From: a candidate division KSB1 bacterium
Lineage (GTDB): Bacteria; Zhuqueibacterota; Zhuqueibacteria; JANLFK01; Oleimicrobiaceae
Length of the DNA: 54,670 nt
Direction of reading: 5' to 3'
Assembly: GCA_024655945.1 (NCBI GenBank)
Contig: JANLFK010000011.1
Location: 86,021-140,690, forward strand
How positions within the stretch are numbered: the stretch's first letter is position 1; the number at the start of each line of letters is the position of its first letter. The translations under genes and the position numbers were made by a program. Below are positions 20,949 through 31,284 of this stretch, one piece after another. The notes below the pieces were generated by a model, which saw only the letters and a program-made list of their open reading frames with translations, searched no databases and had not been told where the DNA came from.

Positions 20949-22862
20949 ATGGGACAGACGATCATCGAGAAAATCATCTCCGCTCATGCGGACCGCCAGG
21001 CGCGGGCCGGCGAGATTGTGTGGATGGACATCGACCTGCGCAGCGCGCGCGACTTTGGCGGGGCCAATGTGGTCAAGAACCTGCGCGAGCACTACCAGGG
21101 CAACTACGTGGCCGACCCGTCGCGCACCGTGTTTACCTTCGATTGCAACGTGCCGGCCAACACCGCCGGCTATGCGGACAACCAACAAATCTGCCGCCTG
21201 TTTGCCCGCGAGCAGGGTATTCGCGTCTACGACGTCAACCAGGGGATTGGCTCGCACGTGGTTATCGAGCAGGGATTGGTGGTGCCCGGCGAAGTGATGG
21301 TCGGGACCGATAGCCATCTGAACATCCTCGGGGCCATCGGTGCATTCGGCCAGGGAATGGGCGACCAGGACATTGCTTTCGCCTTCAAGACGGGGCGAAC
21401 CTGGTTCGAAGTGCCGGCGACTATTCGTGTCAACCTTTACGGTACCTTCCACTATCCCACCACGGCAAAGGATCTGACGCTGTACATCGTGGGCAAGTTA
21501 GGGACAAAAGGGGCACTGGGGAAGGCGGTGGAACTCTACGGCCCGGCCATCGACCAACTCTCTCTTGCCGGCCGCATCACCTTGGCGAGCATGGCCACCG
21601 AGATGGGTGCCATCGCTGCGTTCATGGTGCCCAATGAGGAGGTCCTGTCCTACTGCCGGGCGCGCTCTGGGCGAGCGGTAAGTCCGGTGACTGCCGATTC
21701 CGATGCGGAGTACGTTCGGGTCATCGACATCGACGTGAGCCATTTGCGCCCGCAGGTGGCCAGGCCGAACAGTCCTGCCGATGTCGTGCCGGCCAGCGAG
21801 CTGGGCGGCGTGCGCATCGATTCGGTCTTTATCGGCTCCTGCACGAACGGACGGTACGAGGACTATGCGGTGGTGGCCAGCATTCTGCGTGGCCGGGGCG
21901 TCGCAGAGGGCGTGATGCTCAAGATCGTCCCGGCCACGGCGGAAGTGTACGACCGGCTGTTGGACGATGGACTCATCAAAATCTTCCGCGAAGCAGGGGC
22001 GGTGGTCAGCCACCCGGGCTGTGGCGGATGTGCCTCTGGCCAGATTGGCATGGTGGGAGAGCATGAGGTGCAGATCAGCACCTCCAACAGGAACTTTCGC
22101 GGCAAACAGGGCAAAGGCGACACCTACCTGGCCAGCCCGGCCACTGCAGCGGCCAGTGCCCTGCGGGGATTCATTACCTGCCCGACGACTGTGGCCCATA
22201 CGCTCATCGATTTTGTGCCCGATGGCCAGTGTTTGGTGCGGAGAAGTGAGGCGACGCCTTCCGCTGCGGTGCGCCCCTCTCGCCCGGCGCAGGCAGAGGT
22301 CTTCTCGCCGACTCCTTCGACACCTGCCGGTGGAGCCGAGCTCATCGTGGGCAGGGTGTTCAAGATCGTGGACGAGCGTGGGGACCTGATCGACGACATT
22401 GACACCGACATGATTTTTCACAACCGCTATTTGCACATCAGGGACGTGGCCCAGATGGGGCAGTACACATTCGACAACCTGCGCGGGTACGAAGATTTTG
22501 GCCGCAGGGCCACGCCCCAGGATATCGTCGTGGTGGGCAAGAACTTTGGCTGTGGCTCCTCCCGGCAACAGGGGGTGGATTGTTTCCGCACCTTAGGGAT
22601 TAAGCTCATCATCAGTGAATCCACCGGCGCCATCTACAAGCGTAACGCCATCAATTCTGGCTTGGGGCTGTTGGAGTGCCCGGGCCTCGGCGACGCCCCC
22701 CTTAACCATGGCGACGAGATCGAGGTGGACGTGGCGAGCGGTCGCATCGTGAACCGCACCAACGGTGCCACGATCAATGCAGTGCCGTTCTCGTCGGTGC
22801 AGCTGGAAATCTACCGCGCCGGTAACCTCTTTGCTTACGGAACGCAGCTGATGGGGGAGTGA
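20949..22862 (+). CDS. Fused aconitase/3-isopropylmalate dehydratase-type hydro-lyase
   Basis: 637-residue [4Fe-4S] hydro-lyase carrying large and small subunits in one chain. Residues about 1-430 are LeuC-like: FTFDCNVPANTAGYADNQ, GSHVVIEQGLVVPGEVMVGTDSH (in part), cluster cysteines in GSCTNGRYEDY and in HPGCGGC. A Pro/Ser/Ala linker (about 430-460) leads to the LeuD-like swivel domain with IDTDMIFHNRYL and KNFGCGSSRQQGVDCF. Candidates are isopropylmalate isomerase, homoaconitase, aconitase or a methylmalate-type enzyme; specificity cannot be settled here, though the HACN-like large subunit and small size exclude classical AcnA. AAGGAG precedes the ATG. The aminotransferase follows 54 nt later. 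Confidence 0.85.
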   Translation: MGQTIIEKIISAHADRQARAGEIVWMDIDLRSARDFGGANVVKNLREHYQGNYVADPSRTVFTFDCNVPANTAGYADNQQICRLFAREQGIRVYDVNQGIGSHVVIEQGLVVPGEVMVGTDSHLNILGAIGAFGQGMGDQDIAFAFKTGRTWFEVPATIRVNLYGTFHYPTTAKDLTLYIVGKLGTKGALGKAVELYGPAIDQLSLAGRITLASMATEMGAIAAFMVPNEEVLSYCRARSGRAVSPVTADSDAEYVRVIDIDVSHLRPQVARPNSPADVVPASELGGVRIDSVFIGSCTNGRYEDYAVVASILRGRGVAEGVMLKIVPATAEVYDRLLDDGLIKIFREAGAVVSHPGCGGCASGQIGMVGEHEVQISTSNRNFRGKQGKGDTYLASPATAAASALRGFITCPTTVAHTLIDFVPDGQCLVRRSEATPSAAVRPSRPAQAEVFSPTPSTPAGGAELIVGRVFKIVDERGDLIDDIDTDMIFHNRYLHIRDVAQMGQYTFDNLRGYEDFGRRATPQDIVVVGKNFGCGSSRQQGVDCFRTLGIKLIISESTGAIYKRNAINSGLGLLECPGLGDAPLNHGDEIEVDVASGRIVNRTNGATINAVPFSSVQLEIYRAGNLFAYGTQLMGE

Positions 22863-24190: not shown

Positions 24191-24284
24191 GTAGCGTGGT
24201 CAGGCAGCCCCGGGCGGGGCAGGCAGTGGAGGTGAAGAGGTGTTGAGGGTGTGAGGACTGGTCGTTGCCGCGGAGGTGTCTGAC

Positions 24285-27200
24285 ATGATATCGGCGCCTG
24301 CTGCCGAGGAGGTGCATGCCCGCCTGCAAGCGGTTCAGGATGAGCTGGCCCAGAAATACCACGTGGCCATCGCCATCCGTGACCGCCACGGTCACTCACT
24401 TACCACCCCGAGCAAATCTGTCGAACAGAAGGCCTCCCTTTCGGCCTCGGCCCTACAAGGTCTCTACCACTGCCTTTCTGCCAACTGGCTGCTGCGTGAC
24501 CGGGACGCGATGCAGGGCAAGCGCCTTGTGGCCACGCTCTTTTGCGGTGGCGTAGCCTTAGCGGCGCTGCCAATGGTCGTTGACTCGGATGTGGCTGCCG
24601 TGGTGCGGGTGGCGCAGACCTTTGGCGAGGTGCGGCGCCAACTGGAGCTGCTCAATGAGCAAGTCGTGAGCAGCGGGGGAGCCGTCTCTGGCGAGGATTT
24701 TCTTGACCCGGTAGACGTCTATCTGGGGGCCAACTTCCTCACGATGCTGGAAGCCATCGAGCAGGCGGTGGGAGAGGCGCTGGGTGTGCCGCCGGCCGCG
24801 CCTGCCCCAGAGGCCCCTGCGGCCCTGCCTTCGCTCCTGGTGACGGAACGGCTGTTAGCACTCATTCCGGCAGGCGCTTTCGTTGCCACAGTGGACTGGC
24901 AAATCAGCGCGGCGAACCAGGAACTGGCCAGGATGCTCGGCTACGCCGGGGGCCAGGCATTGGTGGGGCGCAACCTGCTCGGCGACCTCATAGACTTGGA
25001 GTGCCTGCCGCTGCTGGAGGAGCTGCAAGGCAAAAATGAAATCGTCGCGCGGCAGGTGACAGTGCGCACCGCTGATGGCGACCAACTGCCGACCGTGCTG
25101 AGCATGGCCGCTCTCGAGAGGGAAGCAGGTGCGCCTCCCACGTACCTGGGAGTGGTGCAGCGCGTGGAGACGGGGATGCAGCCACCCACTGCGCCAGCAT
25201 TGGCGACTGCGCAGCTGCAGGCCCTTGTGGAAGGGTGGCCAGGGCCGGCGCTCCTGGTGGACAGTTCGCAGCGGATCCTGCGGCACAGCCGGGCGGTGGA
25301 GCAAGAGCTGGGATACGCAGCCGGCGAGCTTGCGGGCGCCCACTTGCAGTCGGTCATCGCAGGGGCAGAGGGGCTCTTTGAGGTGGCAGAAACTTCCCCA
25401 TCGCCCGCGCCCAGGGTGCTTGACGTGCAGCTCCTCCACAAGTCGGGTGACCGCACAGGCGCGCGCTGTATGGCAATCCCTGCAGGTGGAGCGGTGGCCC
25501 TCTTGGCTTTGCCGGCGCCTTCTACGCCTGGAGTTCGACCGGATGCAGGTGACTTGCTCAGGTCTCTGGTGGCGGGCCTCCCGCTTGCTTGCTTGGTCTG
25601 TACAGCGGACGGGAAGATCTTTCATGCCAATGTCGCATCGGCCGCCCTCACTGGCTATGCAGAGGAGGAATTGCGCGGACGCTCCCTTGCCGAGCTCGTG
25701 GCGAGCGACGAGCAGGCGAACGCGGCCGGATGGCTGAGCGGCGCGGAGGCCGGCAAGCTGATCGGTGTCTCCCTAACTTTGCGCAGGAAAGACGGCGCCC
25801 TGGCAGCCGTGGGCGCACGCATGTTCACCGTCTACGGGGAAAACCACACCCGGCTCGTGGTGGTCGCGCTTCAAGAGGCGGGAAAAGTGAGCGGCGCCGA
25901 TGCCGACCAGTGCTATCGGCAGTTGGTCGAGACCTCGCGGGATCTCTATTGGGCTATTGAAATTCCCGACCCTGAGCATTTCGAGCTGGCAATTCCCCTG
26001 CAGCTCAGCCGTGGCTTTGCCGACATCCCTGACCTGGCTACGCTGAAGGCCGAAGGCGGCTTGGTGCGCGCCAAGATAACGCACACGCCGGAGAGCTGGG
26101 AGACATTCCGTCGTTCCTGCTTAGCGGTCTTCCGAACTGGGCGGGTGATGTCCGGCGTGCGCACCGTGCACGTCGACCGCGAACGTAAGGTGGTACAGAC
26201 CTTCTCGACCGAGATCCTTCCGCTCTATCGCGAGGGCAAACTGGTGGGGGTGCACGGCCTGGCGCGCGACACTACCGAGGAGTACCTCCTTCAGCAGGAA
26301 CTGCGGCGCTCTGAAGAGAAGTACCGGGCTTTGGTGGAACACGCAGCGGTGGGCGTATGCCTGGTGGACCGCCAGGGGAGGGTCATCCAGGTCAACAGCG
26401 CTGGCTTGGAGATTCTCGGCGCCTCCGCTGTTGAGGAGCTCAATCGGCGCGGAATCGCCTCCTTGCTGGACGAGCAGGCTCGCCAGGTGCTGGCCCGCGA
26501 GCTGGCCAAAGGGCCGTTGCGGGCGCGGGAGGTAACGGCCACTCGGCTTGACGGGCGCAAGGTCGAACTGGTAGTGCATGCCCGGGAGGTCACTACGCCG
26601 GACCACGGCCAATGCATCGAGGCCTGGTTTACCGACGTGACCCGCCGCCGCACTGCAGAGCGCCGCCTGCGCGAGTCGGAAGAGCGCTTCAGGTCGTTCG
26701 CAGAGAGCATCGCCGAGGGGGTGGTCATTGTCAACACCGCCGGCGGCATTGTGTACGCCAATCGTCGCGTGGCCGAGGTTTTCGGCTACACGCGCAAAGA
26801 ACTCGCCGGCATGGAGTTGTGGGAATTCTTTCATCCCACCGAGCGCGAGTCGCTGCGCGGCCTTTTTGCCCAGCTCATGCAGGGGCAGGCCAGCAGGGTG
26901 CAGACGGAGGGCGACGGCCTGACCAAGAGCGCGGCAATCCTTCGGCTGGAGGTGAGTCTCACGCCGCGGCGTAAGAGGGGAAAAGTGGTGGGCGCCTTCG
27001 TGGTACTGCGGGACGTTACCCAGCAGCGTTCCCTGGAGGAACAGCTCCAGCAGGCGCAGAAGATGGAAAGCGTCGGCATGTTGGCAGGCGGCATTGCCCA
27101 CGACTTCAACAACGTCCTCACCGAAATCCTGGGCTACGCCTCGTTGCTCGACGCTGAGGAGGAGCTCCCGGAGCACCTGCGCGGGATGGTGAGGCAGATC

Positions 27201-28193
27201 ATCGAGCTTGCCTCTATGGCGGGCTCGCTGACCCAGCAGCTCATCGCCTTCAGTCGCAACACCAGGCCCCAGCGCCGCCCCATGCAGCTCAACGAGGTGG
27301 TGCGCGAGACGGCGCGCTTTCTTTCGCATAGCCTGCCCGAGGGGATCGCGCTCAGGACGCATTTGGCCAAAGACCTGCGCATCATCTCCGGCGACCCGGT
27401 GCAGCTGCAGCAGGTGCTCATCAATCTCTGCGTCAATGCACGCGACGCCGTGCCCGAGGGGGGCAAGATCGTCATCAAGACGGACAACGTTACCCTCACC
27501 GACGAGCAACGGCGTCAGTTCAAGAATCAACAGCTGCATGAAGTGGTGCGGCTGCGCGTCTCCGATACAGGCGTAGGCATGGACCAAGAGACGATCAAGC
27601 ACATCTTCGAGCCTTTCTTCACCACCAAGTCGAAAGGGAAGGGCTCCGGATTGGGCTTGTCCATCGTCTACGTCATCGTGGCCGGGCACGGCGGTGAGAT
27701 CCAGGTGAGCAGCGCGCCAGGCCAGGGCGCCACCTTTGACATTTACTTGCCGGCACTGACGGAACAGCTCAAGCCTGAGCCGGAGAAGAAACGGTTGCCG
27801 CTCAAGGGGGGCAATGAGTGTATCCTGCTCGTTGACGACCAGGAAGAGATGCTCGAATTGGGTCAGAGGATGCTCAGCAGGCACGGCTACGAGGTGTTGA
27901 CCGCCAAAGGGGGTGTGGAGGGCGTGGATCTCTTCCGCCAGCGGGCCGACGAAATCGACCTCGTGATCGTGGACCTTCTCATGCCGGACCTACCCGGTGA
28001 AGAGTGTGCCCGCACCATCCGTTCGGAAAAGCCGGAGGTAGCCATACTCTTGACCAGCGGTTTCGTTCCCGCCCCACGCGGGCAGGAGGAGTTGGCGCAG
28101 GTCAGCGACGGCATCCTGCAGAAGCCCTTCGACTTGCGGCAGTTGCTCACGGTGGTGCGCGCTACCCTTGACGCCAAGAAGTCGCCCGACTGA
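24285..28193 (+). CDS. Multi-PAS hybrid histidine kinase with receiver domain
   Basis: 1302-residue soluble sensor kinase with no signal peptide or membrane span. Order: an N-terminal sensory segment (about 1-165) that distantly resembles a PocR-type ligand domain; about six PAS units (roughly 190-300, 310-410, 425-540, 545-670, 680-790, 800-920); a HisKA helix with GGIAHDFNNVLTEILGYA carrying the phospho-histidine; an HATPase domain with N-box INLCVNARDA, DTGVGM and GSGLGLSIVY; and a receiver with phospho-acceptor Asp in VIVDLLMPD and Lys in LQKPFD. No output domain is attached, so a separate regulator is needed. CGGAGG (24271-24276) 8 nt before the ATG at 24285 sets the start. Confidence 0.9.
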   Translation: MISAPAAEEVHARLQAVQDELAQKYHVAIAIRDRHGHSLTTPSKSVEQKASLSASALQGLYHCLSANWLLRDRDAMQGKRLVATLFCGGVALAALPMVVDSDVAAVVRVAQTFGEVRRQLELLNEQVVSSGGAVSGEDFLDPVDVYLGANFLTMLEAIEQAVGEALGVPPAAPAPEAPAALPSLLVTERLLALIPAGAFVATVDWQISAANQELARMLGYAGGQALVGRNLLGDLIDLECLPLLEELQGKNEIVARQVTVRTADGDQLPTVLSMAALEREAGAPPTYLGVVQRVETGMQPPTAPALATAQLQALVEGWPGPALLVDSSQRILRHSRAVEQELGYAAGELAGAHLQSVIAGAEGLFEVAETSPSPAPRVLDVQLLHKSGDRTGARCMAIPAGGAVALLALPAPSTPGVRPDAGDLLRSLVAGLPLACLVCTADGKIFHANVASAALTGYAEEELRGRSLAELVASDEQANAAGWLSGAEAGKLIGVSLTLRRKDGALAAVGARMFTVYGENHTRLVVVALQEAGKVSGADADQCYRQLVETSRDLYWAIEIPDPEHFELAIPLQLSRGFADIPDLATLKAEGGLVRAKITHTPESWETFRRSCLAVFRTGRVMSGVRTVHVDRERKVVQTFSTEILPLYREGKLVGVHGLARDTTEEYLLQQELRRSEEKYRALVEHAAVGVCLVDRQGRVIQVNSAGLEILGASAVEELNRRGIASLLDEQARQVLARELAKGPLRAREVTATRLDGRKVELVVHAREVTTPDHGQCIEAWFTDVTRRRTAERRLRESEERFRSFAESIAEGVVIVNTAGGIVYANRRVAEVFGYTRKELAGMELWEFFHPTERESLRGLFAQLMQGQASRVQTEGDGLTKSAAILRLEVSLTPRRKRGKVVGAFVVLRDVTQQRSLEEQLQQAQKMESVGMLAGGIAHDFNNVLTEILGYASLLDAEEELPEHLRGMVRQIIELASMAGSLTQQLIAFSRNTRPQRRPMQLNEVVRETARFLSHSLPEGIALRTHLAKDLRIISGDPVQLQQVLINLCVNARDAVPEGGKIVIKTDNVTLTDEQRRQFKNQQLHEVVRLRVSDTGVGMDQETIKHIFEPFFTTKSKGKGSGLGLSIVYVIVAGHGGEIQVSSAPGQGATFDIYLPALTEQLKPEPEKKRLPLKGGNECILLVDDQEEMLELGQRMLSRHGYEVLTAKGGVEGVDLFRQRADEIDLVIVDLLMPDLPGEECARTIRSEKPEVAILLTSGFVPAPRGQEELAQVSDGILQKPFDLRQLLTVVRATLDAKKSPD

Positions 28194-28269
28194 GCCACAG
28201 GTGGCTTGCTGACCTGACAGGCCCTGAATGCATAGAGAGGCAAGGACAAATCCACAGGAGGGAAGCCGG

Positions 28270-30525
28270 GTGTTCGACATTGAGCGCTCGTTGGACGAAC
28301 AGATACTGGCCATAGAGAAGATCAAGCCCACGGCCATCTTCGCGGACGGTTTGGACCCACGGGTCATCATGGCCGCGGCGCGGCTGGTGCGTTTTGCCAA
28401 GATCGTTATCCCGGCAAGCGAAGAAGAGATTGCTGCCTTTGCCAAGCGCGCCTGTCCGCAAATGGACGCCACTCGCATCGAGTACTTGCTCGCTAATATC
28501 AAAGCGGTGGACCTGGCGAAGGAGGAAGAGCTCCTCGAGGAGTTCGCGCGGGAGTACGTGCGCATCGGGCGCAAACACGCATGGTTGGGCAGCGAGGAGG
28601 AGGCGCGCGAACTCGTGAGCCAGCCCCCCATGTTTGCCATCATGGCCGTCAAGTTGGGGTATGCCGACATGGCGTTCGGCGGCCTCAAGTATGGGCCGCG
28701 CGAGTTCTTTCGACCCTTCATGCGCATCGTCGGCCAAAAGGGCACGGCCTTCGAGGCGGGGATCTTCGTCCTGCCAGAAGGGCACACGGAGCAGTTTTAC
28801 GAGCAGAACATCGTGGCCTTTGGCGACGTGGCCGTCAACGCGCGTATGACGCCCGCGCGCCTGGCGGACGTGGCCGTGGGCACCTGCAAGATTGCCCGCG
28901 ACATCATCCCGCAGGATGTGCTTCCCTGCATCAACGGCTGCATTGTTTCCTACTCCACCAAGGGGTTGGACGAAGGGCCGTCGGTGGACTTGGTGCGCAA
29001 GGCGGCGGAGCTGGTGCCGCAGCGCTTGGCAGCCTTGGTTCGCCGCGACCCGCGGTACGCTACCATCCGCATCGACGCGGAGGTGCAGATTAGCTGCGCC
29101 ATCTCCCGCGAGGCAGCAGTGGTGAAGTTGGGGGAGCGCTACCATCCCGATTCACCCCTCGGCAGGGTCAACGTCCTCATTGCCCCTAACCTAGACCTGG
29201 GCAATTTTCTCTACAACATGTACGCCACCCGCTACCCGACGGCAAAAAAGTTCCCTGTCTCAGGTGGACTGGCCAACAAGGTCGTGGACTTTTCCAAAGA
29301 GTCCACCGAGAGCGACGTGGTGCTTGGTGCCAAGGCCAACATCCTCATGCTGCTCAAGTCCGGCAAGTGGCAGGCGACCCCGCGTGACCGCTTCTTTCCC
29401 GGCTACCGCATCCTGGCCATCAATCCCGGGTCCACTTCGACAAAGGTCGCTTACTTTGAAGGGGACATCGAGGTCTACGCTGGGGAGATAAAACACAGCG
29501 CCGAGGAACTGGCGCCGTTTGAGGAAATCACCGAGCAGTACGATTTCCGCAAGAGAGTTATTCTCTCGGAACTGCAAGCCAAGCAGATTGACATCAGCCG
29601 CCTGGACGCCGTAGTGGGAAGGGGGGGTCTGATCTGGCCAGTGCCCAGCGGCACCTTTCTGGTCAACGAGTGCATGAAGCAGGACCTGCGCGCCTGCGTA
29701 CAGGGCAGTCATGCCTCGAACCTCGGCGGACTCATTGCCGCCGAGATCGCCGAAGAGCTGGGGATTCTGGCCTACATTGTCGACCCGGTGGTGGTGGACG
29801 AGGTGAGCGAGATCTACAAGATCACCGGCCTGAAGGAGTTGCGGCGCAAAATCATCTCGCACGCGCTAAGCCAGATCGCCACGGCCAAGCGCTATGCAGA
29901 GGAGACGGGCCGCTTCTATCGCGAGATCAACGTCATCGTCGCCCACCTTGGAGGCGGCATTAGCATTGGAGCGCACTTCAAGGGGCGCTATGCCGAGGTC
30001 AACAACGCGCTGGATGGCGAAGGCCCATTCACCCCGGAGCGGAGTGGGTCACTTCCCGTTGGCCAGCTCATTCAGCTTTGCTACTCGGGAAAGTACACGC
30101 TGAAAGAGATGAAGCTGAAGAACAAAGGCCGGGGTGGGCTCATCGACCTGGTGGGAACCTCGGACTTTCGCGAGGTGGAGCGACGCGTGCTGGCCGGCGA
30201 GCCTGAGTTTGTGGCAGTGTTCGAGGCGATGGCCTACCAGGTGGCGCGGTGGATCACCTCTCTTCTGCCCGCCTTTGAAGGAGAGCCGGTTGACCAGGTG
30301 TTGCTGACCGGAGGGCTCGCCCGGTGCCAGCCCTTTGTAGAGCGCATCAAGCAACGCATTGCGGCGCTCAACGTCGGGGTGACCGTCTACCCTGGAGAGA
30401 ACGAGATGACCGCCCTCCGCGACGGGGCGCTGCGCGTCCTCATGGGTAAGGAGAAGGTCAAGACCTATTTGGGAAAGCCATCTCCGGCCGAAGAGGCACA
30501 GGCTGCGCCGCTGGCGGTGAGCTGA
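28270..30525 (+). CDS. ptb-buk: Phosphotransbutyrylase-butyrate kinase fusion
   Basis: 751-residue two-domain enzyme. Residues about 1-385 form a PTA/PTB phosphoacyltransferase: FADGLDPRVIMAAARL, CIVSYSTKGL, VNVLIAPNLDLGNFLYN and a closing VVDFSKES. Residues about 395-740 form a butyrate-kinase-type acetokinase: ILAINPGSTSTKVAYFEGD, VGRGGLIWPVPSGTF, QGSHASNLGGLIA, VIVAHLGGGISIGAH and LLTGGLA. One chain would convert acyl-CoA to acyl-phosphate to free acid plus ATP (or the reverse) in butyrate or branched-chain acid metabolism. The order matches the usual ptb-buk operon. The start is a GTG at 28270, with AGGAGG at 28256-28261 and 8-nt spacing. No frameshift or stop lies at the junction. Confidence 0.92.
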   Translation: MFDIERSLDEQILAIEKIKPTAIFADGLDPRVIMAAARLVRFAKIVIPASEEEIAAFAKRACPQMDATRIEYLLANIKAVDLAKEEELLEEFAREYVRIGRKHAWLGSEEEARELVSQPPMFAIMAVKLGYADMAFGGLKYGPREFFRPFMRIVGQKGTAFEAGIFVLPEGHTEQFYEQNIVAFGDVAVNARMTPARLADVAVGTCKIARDIIPQDVLPCINGCIVSYSTKGLDEGPSVDLVRKAAELVPQRLAALVRRDPRYATIRIDAEVQISCAISREAAVVKLGERYHPDSPLGRVNVLIAPNLDLGNFLYNMYATRYPTAKKFPVSGGLANKVVDFSKESTESDVVLGAKANILMLLKSGKWQATPRDRFFPGYRILAINPGSTSTKVAYFEGDIEVYAGEIKHSAEELAPFEEITEQYDFRKRVILSELQAKQIDISRLDAVVGRGGLIWPVPSGTFLVNECMKQDLRACVQGSHASNLGGLIAAEIAEELGILAYIVDPVVVDEVSEIYKITGLKELRRKIISHALSQIATAKRYAEETGRFYREINVIVAHLGGGISIGAHFKGRYAEVNNALDGEGPFTPERSGSLPVGQLIQLCYSGKYTLKEMKLKNKGRGGLIDLVGTSDFREVERRVLAGEPEFVAVFEAMAYQVARWITSLLPAFEGEPVDQVLLTGGLARCQPFVERIKQRIAALNVGVTVYPGENEMTALRDGALRVLMGKEKVKTYLGKPSPAEEAQAAPLAVS

Positions 30526-30570: not shown

Positions 30571-31284
30571 GTGAGGAAGATGCAATCGCCGCGTAGAGTC
30601 TGGGGCGCGCTTGTCGGATGCCTTTTGCTCTTGCTCGGTGCAACCGCCCCGGTGCACTGCCAGCTGGCAGGAGGCCAGGCCGGAGTGGGTCTGCCGACGG
30701 CCAGTTTCGCCAGACCGCCGCATGACGACCCGGTGGCGCAGGGGGCGCAGCCAGGCTTCTGGTTGCAGGCACTCTACCTGCACCCGCTCGGACCGGTTTA
30801 CCTGCGCACGACCTGTGCCATTGCCTCGTTTGGCGAGAAGGAAAAGACCTTTACCTCAGCAGGGACTATCGCCGGTTTCCGACACGACGTTTTCTCTTTG
30901 GGCACTGGCGTGGAGATTGATCCCTGGAGCGAGTCTACGGTGCGGCCTTTTGCGCATGGCGGAGGCGGGCTCTACCTCTACTCTGGACGGGCCGTCGATG
31001 TGGGCCGAGGTGGGCAGGACACACCCATCGCCCGCGAGGAGTTCCGCTTCAAGTGGAAGCTGCGCTTCGGCGTTGAGTTCGGTGGGGGCTTCATTGTCCA
31101 GCTCGTGCCTGAGCTTGCGCAGCTGCGCCTGAGCCTTGCGTACACCACTGTGTTCAGTGGCGAACTCCGGGGCATGGTGGGCTACGAAGCCGGCGCGCAG
31201 CTGTTCGAATACCCCTACCCTTATCCTGCCAAGCGCCTCGACTACCTGCTGCTGGGCTTGGGTCTGGTCTTTCAACTGCAGTGA
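30571..31284 (+). CDS. Hypothetical exported beta-barrel-like protein
   Basis: 237-residue protein with a signal peptide (GALVGCLLLLLGATAPVHC) and a body of alternating aromatic/small residues arranged as beta-hairpins (HPLGPVYLRTTCAIASFGEK, RPFAHGGGGLYLYSG, WKLRFGVEFGGGFIVQL), ending in LLLGLGLVFQLQ. This predicts an eight-to-ten-strand outer-membrane barrel. The start is a GTG at 30571 with GGAAGAGAG upstream; an ATG at 30580 is also possible. It follows the ptb-buk gene by 45 nt and ends at a shared terminator. Confidence 0.6.
   Translation: MRKMQSPRRVWGALVGCLLLLLGATAPVHCQLAGGQAGVGLPTASFARPPHDDPVAQGAQPGFWLQALYLHPLGPVYLRTTCAIASFGEKEKTFTSAGTIAGFRHDVFSLGTGVEIDPWSESTVRPFAHGGGGLYLYSGRAVDVGRGGQDTPIAREEFRFKWKLRFGVEFGGGFIVQLVPELAQLRLSLAYTTVFSGELRGMVGYEAGAQLFEYPYPYPAKRLDYLLLGLGLVFQLQ

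Follow-up and report, generated by a model that had tools for sequence, protein, structure and literature searches.

Butyrate kinase (Buk) and phosphotransbutyrylase (Ptb) are partners in one pathway. Ptb, for example that of C. acetobutylicum, belongs to the superfamily that also holds Pta/EutD (PF01515), with solved structures for the Pta of M. thermophila (Mt Pta, 1qzt) and that of P. gingivalis (PgPta, 6iow). In P. gingivalis Pta, alanine at the equivalents of Mt Pta D307, S309, R310 or D316 abolishes or sharply cuts activity (PMC6461089), and in CaPTB the residues Asp217, Lys228, Asn250, Lys254, Ser279 and Arg280 are among those common to Ptb and Pta (PMC9706017); in our alignment, they correspond to Mt Pta D246, K257, N279, K283, S309 and R310, respectively. 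A PTA fold that has become part of another metabolic enzyme is found in the MaeB/DME/TME hybrid malic enzymes, in which a malic enzyme carries a C-terminal PTA domain that has lost the catalytic PTA residues. The MaeB domain is without PTA activity and serves as an acetyl-CoA sensor and as the hexamer core, reporting to the catalytic domain (PMC7902834, PMC12704298).

Here we describe a gene in which a PTA-like domain is joined to a butyrate kinase, located in a 54,670-nucleotide stretch of DNA (the window) from a candidate division KSB1 bacterium. A literature search for a natural Ptb-Buk fusion, or for a butyrate kinase that carries a PTA domain, returned nothing relevant, although most subscription journals and all preprints were outside its scope, such that absence is not proof; as far as that search reached, the earlier statement, made from the DNA letters of the window, that the fusion is not a characterized enzyme stands. 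The two domains are known, as is the general principle, but the combination, its spread and the series of eroded forms set out below are, as far as we can tell, undescribed.

The fused gene and its relatives

The gene occupies positions 28270 to 30525 of the forward strand as a single unbroken frame of 751 codons plus a stop, and the open reading frame, Pfam and NCBIfam profiles and sister species all identify its product as a PTA-like domain followed by a butyrate kinase. An in-frame ATG is also present at 28228, giving an open reading frame of 765 amino acids. We prefer the GTG at 28270 because, on reading the sequence, a Shine-Dalgarno element (AGGAGGG, 28256 to 28262, forward strand) lies 7 nt upstream of it and because the Met start of the relatives falls in the same alignment column, making a start at the upstream ATG less likely. 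In the numbering of the 765-residue frame, Pfam PTA_PTB (PF01515) matched residues 31 to 365 with 103.3 bits (cut-off, 24), and the NCBIfam butyrate kinase model TIGR02707 matched residues 394 to 745 with 457.3 bits (cut-off, 289.1), covering positions 1 to 350 of its 351. Between the two domains lies a linker (residues 364 to 380 of the 751-residue protein; 29359 to 29409, forward strand) that, according to the alignment and the structure model, carries the pattern TPxDxFFPRxR, conserved across the fusion family, and is modeled with a pLDDT of about 87 to 91. The model of the whole window protein, built on a shallow alignment of 12 rows (mean pLDDT, 80.1; pTM, 0.80), supports both folds, and its structural matches include Buk, Pta and the PTA domains of MaeB.

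The same fusion is found in two sister species of the window's genus (97% and 88% identity), with the start and the junction conserved and no stop at the junction. The dN/dS values against these two species were 0.034 and 0.069 for the first half and 0.014 and 0.035 for the second, and since they are low in both halves, neither a frameshift artifact nor chance explains the fusion; a chance open reading frame is also ruled out by the profile scores. Although ptb and buk often lie next to each other, we found nothing in favor of the idea that an assembly or frameshift artifact had fused two such neighbors. This explanation has a negligible probability, given that the sister species carry the fusion too, that it recurs at no fewer than 53 loci across several phyla, that the linker pattern is conserved across the family and that dN/dS is low on either side of the junction; independent genomes carry the fusion, and the artifact explanation is thereby refuted. 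The sequence-only reading of this DNA had proposed one uninterrupted 751-codon frame, with a PTA/PTB-type domain first, a butyrate kinase second and a short junction, and had named a stop or frameshift between the halves as what would speak against it. The frame is upheld by the open reading frame, the Shine-Dalgarno element, the sister species and the dN/dS values, the domain order agrees with Pfam and NCBIfam, the junction is indeed short (about residues 364 to 380), and the sister genes run through it without a break.

Searching for proteins that align over both domains and listing their phyla, as that reading had suggested, we read 53 distinct full-length or nearly full-length fusions after removal of duplicates, so that the family has at least 53 members, and these span at least four bacterial phyla. 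The phyla were counted by the grouping of the genome search and not by record titles because the two disagree for some records (those titled 'Gemmatimonas' and 'Fibrobacter' belong by grouping to a Krumholz-type phylum). Within the window's phylum, full-length fusions were present in 5 of 82 genomes, three from the window's genus and two, with records titled KSB1 and Caldithrix, from another family. The Krumholzibacteriota-type phylum (80 genomes) yielded about 35 fusions, 29 of them near full length and the rest cut by contig ends, while the phylum of an Aminicenantes record (297 genomes) and that of a 'Deltaproteobacteria' record (284 genomes) yielded 28 and 10 full-length fusions, respectively. 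When genome contigs were scanned once with the first half as the query, 14 loci were obtained (11 full-length fusions, 1 interrupted fusion and 2 free-standing paralogues), clearly an undercount, because the later phylum searches found many more. This spread across phyla rules out a fusion unique to the window genome. At one locus (L061, 6432 to 8654, genome G090), a TGA breaks the fusion frame after ~460 residues, reflecting either a sequencing error or a broken gene.

Active-site residues of the two halves

The first half of the protein (residues 1 to 363; 28270 to 29358, forward strand) is a PTA-fold domain by its PF01515 match, its matches to PTA and MaeB PTA-domain structures in the PDB and its place in the tree, and it is a divergent Pta-like domain rather than a Ptb. 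Its best NCBIfam models are of the Pta/EutD type, all far below cut-off (pta TIGR00651, 91.1 versus 311.2 bits), and no Ptb model is among the NCBIfam models listed for it; the domain is also about 30 to 40 residues longer than Pta. In a quick tree of the PTA superfamily, with long branches, a branch with an SH-aLRT value of 100 had canonical Ptb on one side and Pta, the MaeB PTA domain and the fusions on the other. The profile models and the tree together rule out the identification of the first half as a phosphotransbutyrylase, and on this point the sequence-only reading has to be corrected.

To assign residues, we used an alignment to Mt Pta (1qzt), with one free-standing Pta, eight Ptb sequences and the Ptb domains of eight reverse-order fusions (see below) for comparison. 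D246, K257, K283, S309 and R310 were kept by all of the Pta and Ptb sequences compared, whereas all sampled fusions lack both D246 (replaced by S or N) and K283 (replaced by N, H or F). The window protein has S275 for D246, N316 for K283 and K343 for R310, but it keeps D340, S342, D349, K286, Q273, N312 and Y315. Its version of the Pta active-site motif, D340-F-S342-K343-E-S-T-E-S-D349 (29287 to 29316, forward strand; equivalent to Mt Pta D307, S309, R310 and D316), thus retains the Ser and both Asp residues, with Lys in place of Arg. The residue equivalent to D349 is the catalytic base in Pta.

Erosion has gone further in most relatives. In 46 of the 53 fusions, R310, K257 and Q244 are lost and S309 is nearly always lost, mostly leaving D-L-[P/A]-M-D...D in place of D-L-S-R...D, with M, L, V, I or Q at the R310 position and mostly P or A at the S309 position; one member, L053, has kept the Ser and lost the Arg. 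These lost-motif sequences form one clade of the PTA tree (SH-aLRT, 100), on which the loss is one evolutionary event. Other parts of the site have been retained throughout the family, D349 being invariant in all 53 fusions and the pocket residues N312, D340 and D349 being conserved in nearly all of them. Judged by sequence, the PTA half belongs to the PTA superfamily and is folded and under selection, but its catalytic site has eroded.

Two members of this PTA-like subfamily are free-standing (L062, 5321 to 6442, and L063, 8001 to 9125); they have 40 to 43% identity to the window's half, keep S-R-D and sit in KSB1 and Caldithrix genomes that also carry the fusion. They represent either the prefusion form or a split copy.

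The second half (residues 381 to 735; 29410 to 30474, forward strand) has the butyrate kinase motifs NPGSTST, RGG, GGG and TGG intact, as seen against TIGR02707, Thermotoga maritima Buk2 (1x9j) and the conserved columns, and these ASKHA motifs are invariant or at least 96% conserved across the 53 fusions. Relative to Buk2 and TIGR02707, this half is full length and about 46 to 48% identical to solved structures, the difference being the extra N-terminal part of ~380 residues. It reads as an intact butyrate kinase, akin to the free-standing butyrate kinases. In the Buk tree, most fusion kinases, including that of the window, form one group (SH-aLRT, 98), with the KSB1/Caldithrix and 'Deltaproteobacteria' pairs lying without resolution at the base. 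Two free-standing butyrate kinases (L129/L152 and L130/L153) nest inside the fusion clade, and there is no PTA-like gene in the neighborhoods of L129 and L130, which suggests that these two have secondarily lost the PTA half and implies that the kinase can do without it.

Separate Ptb genes and the role of the PTA-like half

A canonical Ptb gene (~305 amino acids, with an SR[AGS]D-type motif) lies directly downstream of the fusion in 38 of the 46 lost-motif loci, or 38 of the 43 with readable flanks. It is on the same strand and within 94 nt or overlapping in 31 of these loci (in L053, it begins at the stop of the fusion) and convergent within 1 kb in the other 7. Three of the remaining loci are at contig ends, and five, all of one clade, have no Ptb nearby but have one elsewhere in the genome. 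None of the five testable kept-motif loci, the window included, has an adjacent canonical Ptb, but every kept-motif genome checked has one elsewhere; the window genome has two (contig C1, 113627 to 114517 and 125010 to 125906), with a single separate Buk near the second. No other butyrate kinase is listed in the fusion-bearing genomes of the Krumholz-type phylum. Where the PTA half looks dead, then, the genome supplies what is by sequence a real Ptb beside its only apparent kinase. The motif was lost in a single event, which gives its association with a neighboring Ptb no independent replication; the two together are one strong natural case, not many. The downstream Ptb is the only widely recurring neighbor of the fusion; the others (an RNA methyltransferase, Omp85, radical SAM, peptidase M24 and flotillin-like proteins, in several genomes) form no consistent pathway.

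The explanation that we favor, with a probability of roughly 55%, is that this member of the butyrate kinase family is an acyl-phosphate kinase, predicted to be active, with a PTA-derived regulatory or oligomerizing N-terminal domain. The PTA half would no longer make acyl-phosphate in most of the fusions; a separate canonical Ptb would convert acyl-CoA to acyl-phosphate, the fused kinase would use acyl-phosphate and ADP to form the acid and ATP, and the PTA half would bind acyl-CoA or CoA, or build an oligomer, and so tune the kinase. We infer that it may follow the logic of the MaeB PTA domain, to which the window model matches about as well as to Ptas. One MaeB trait, a PTA domain without its catalytic residues, is present in 46 of the 53 relatives and partial in the window (D, S, K, D). 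The two systems differ in that the partner of MaeB is a malic enzyme, whereas here an N-terminal PTA-like half is joined to a butyrate kinase, the kinase of its own pathway, and in that R310 and D316 are gone but S309 is retained in the MaeB compared, whereas the fusions keep D316 and one clade loses S309 and R310.

Some observations sit awkwardly with a regulator. The invariance of D349 and near-invariance of D340 are not what one would expect of a dead site, S342 is still present in the window branch, where R has changed conservatively to K, and the free-standing paralogues with S-R-D may be active enzymes. These points bear on a different explanation, that in the window branch the protein is truly bifunctional, the PTA-like half converting acyl-CoA to acyl-phosphate by Pta-like chemistry and the kinase on the same chain converting this to acid and ATP. 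The two halves would then catalyze consecutive steps of one pathway, as their families do, and the kept residues (K286, Q273, N312 and Y315 as well as the Ser and both Asp residues), the retention of S-R-D by the KSB1 and Caldithrix fusions and two other relatives, the existence of S-R-D paralogues and the absence of an adjacent Ptb from kept-motif loci are all consistent with it. However, the window protein, like the other fusions, lacks D246 and K283, which are conserved in the Pta and Ptb sequences that we compared, a canonical Ptb is encoded elsewhere in each of the kept-motif genomes checked, and the closest sister clade has dropped the active site altogether. We consider full bifunctionality doubtful, at about one chance in three. 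As the window branch has been eroded only in part (it keeps S342, D340, D349, K286 and Q273), some residual transacylase activity is possible there but less likely than a regulatory role. The channeling of acyl-phosphate between the halves, as first suggested for this gene, is unsupported: D246 and K283 are lost in every sampled fusion, in most fusions the catalytic Ser and Arg are missing as well, and of the latter a separate Ptb adjoins 38 of the 43 with readable flanks.

The PTA-like half might instead be purely structural, setting the oligomer or recruiting the adjacent Ptb without binding a ligand. PTA-family domains do oligomerize (MaeB as a hexamer, CaPTB as an octamer), a Ptb gene adjoins the fusion in most relatives, and two kinases of the clade have apparently lost the PTA half, but the conservation of N312, D340 and D349 in nearly all 53 fusions is more than a pure scaffold needs, and we regard this explanation as improbable.

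Returning to the regulated kinase, a broader version of it, which we put forward tentatively and as slightly less probable than not, is that these multiphylum acyl kinases captured at their N-terminal end a PTA domain, a homolog of the enzyme that supplies their substrate, and that this domain became an acyl-CoA sensor for the ATP-forming step, with the real Ptb kept as a neighboring gene. The MaeB principle would then have arisen a second time, independently, and the window branch would stand half-way between enzyme and sensor. If the PTA half is a sensor, an enzyme domain has come to regulate the enzyme that follows it in the same pathway, and intermediates are still extant; gating of carboxylate and ATP formation by the acyl-CoA pool becomes testable, and an acyl-CoA-responsive kinase is a possible use. 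Automatic annotation would call these proteins either bifunctional Ptb-Buk or plain butyrate kinase, and with either label, the fermentation of poorly known phyla may be reconstructed wrongly.

Reverse-order fusions and other genes nearby

A different set of genomes of the Krumholz-type phylum encodes a protein in which the same two protein families are on one chain in the opposite order, Buk and then Ptb, mostly of about 730 to 880 amino acids. There are about two dozen loci of this shape (among them L099, 4585 to 7029; L102, 3782 to 6064; L100; L101; and L103 to L106). Both halves form clades of their own in the Buk and PTA trees, pointing to a separate origin, and the Ptb half is canonical, with all compared catalytic residues intact. 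On these residues, the reverse-order protein is a better candidate for a true bifunctional Ptb-Buk than the window fusion, and it might be used as a natural one-chain Ptb-Buk for carboxylate production.

Scans of the window for tRNAs and Rfam families gave no hits. Upstream of the fusion, and ending 76 nt before it, is a hybrid histidine kinase of 1305 amino acids (24276 to 28193, forward strand), in which Pfam recognizes a receiver domain and several PAS domains and which is kept in the sister species. It lies just upstream within the window's genus, and some relatives have other hybrid kinases near the fusion but not adjacent to it. Directly downstream (30571 to 31284, forward strand) is a 237-amino-acid protein that has no Pfam or NCBIfam match and is conserved in a sister species. 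Further upstream (20949 to 22862, forward strand), an aconitase/homoaconitase-type protein of 637 amino acids has its large and small domains on one chain. Elsewhere, locus L044 (6460 to 10539, genome G017) has two Ptb and two Buk genes in tandem, and in the window's phylum several genomes have Buk genes in pairs. In the window genome itself (contig C1; L040, 13262 to 15274), an iron-hydrogenase large domain and a histidine kinase core are combined in one protein, encoded near the separate ptb and buk genes and hydrogenase maturation genes.
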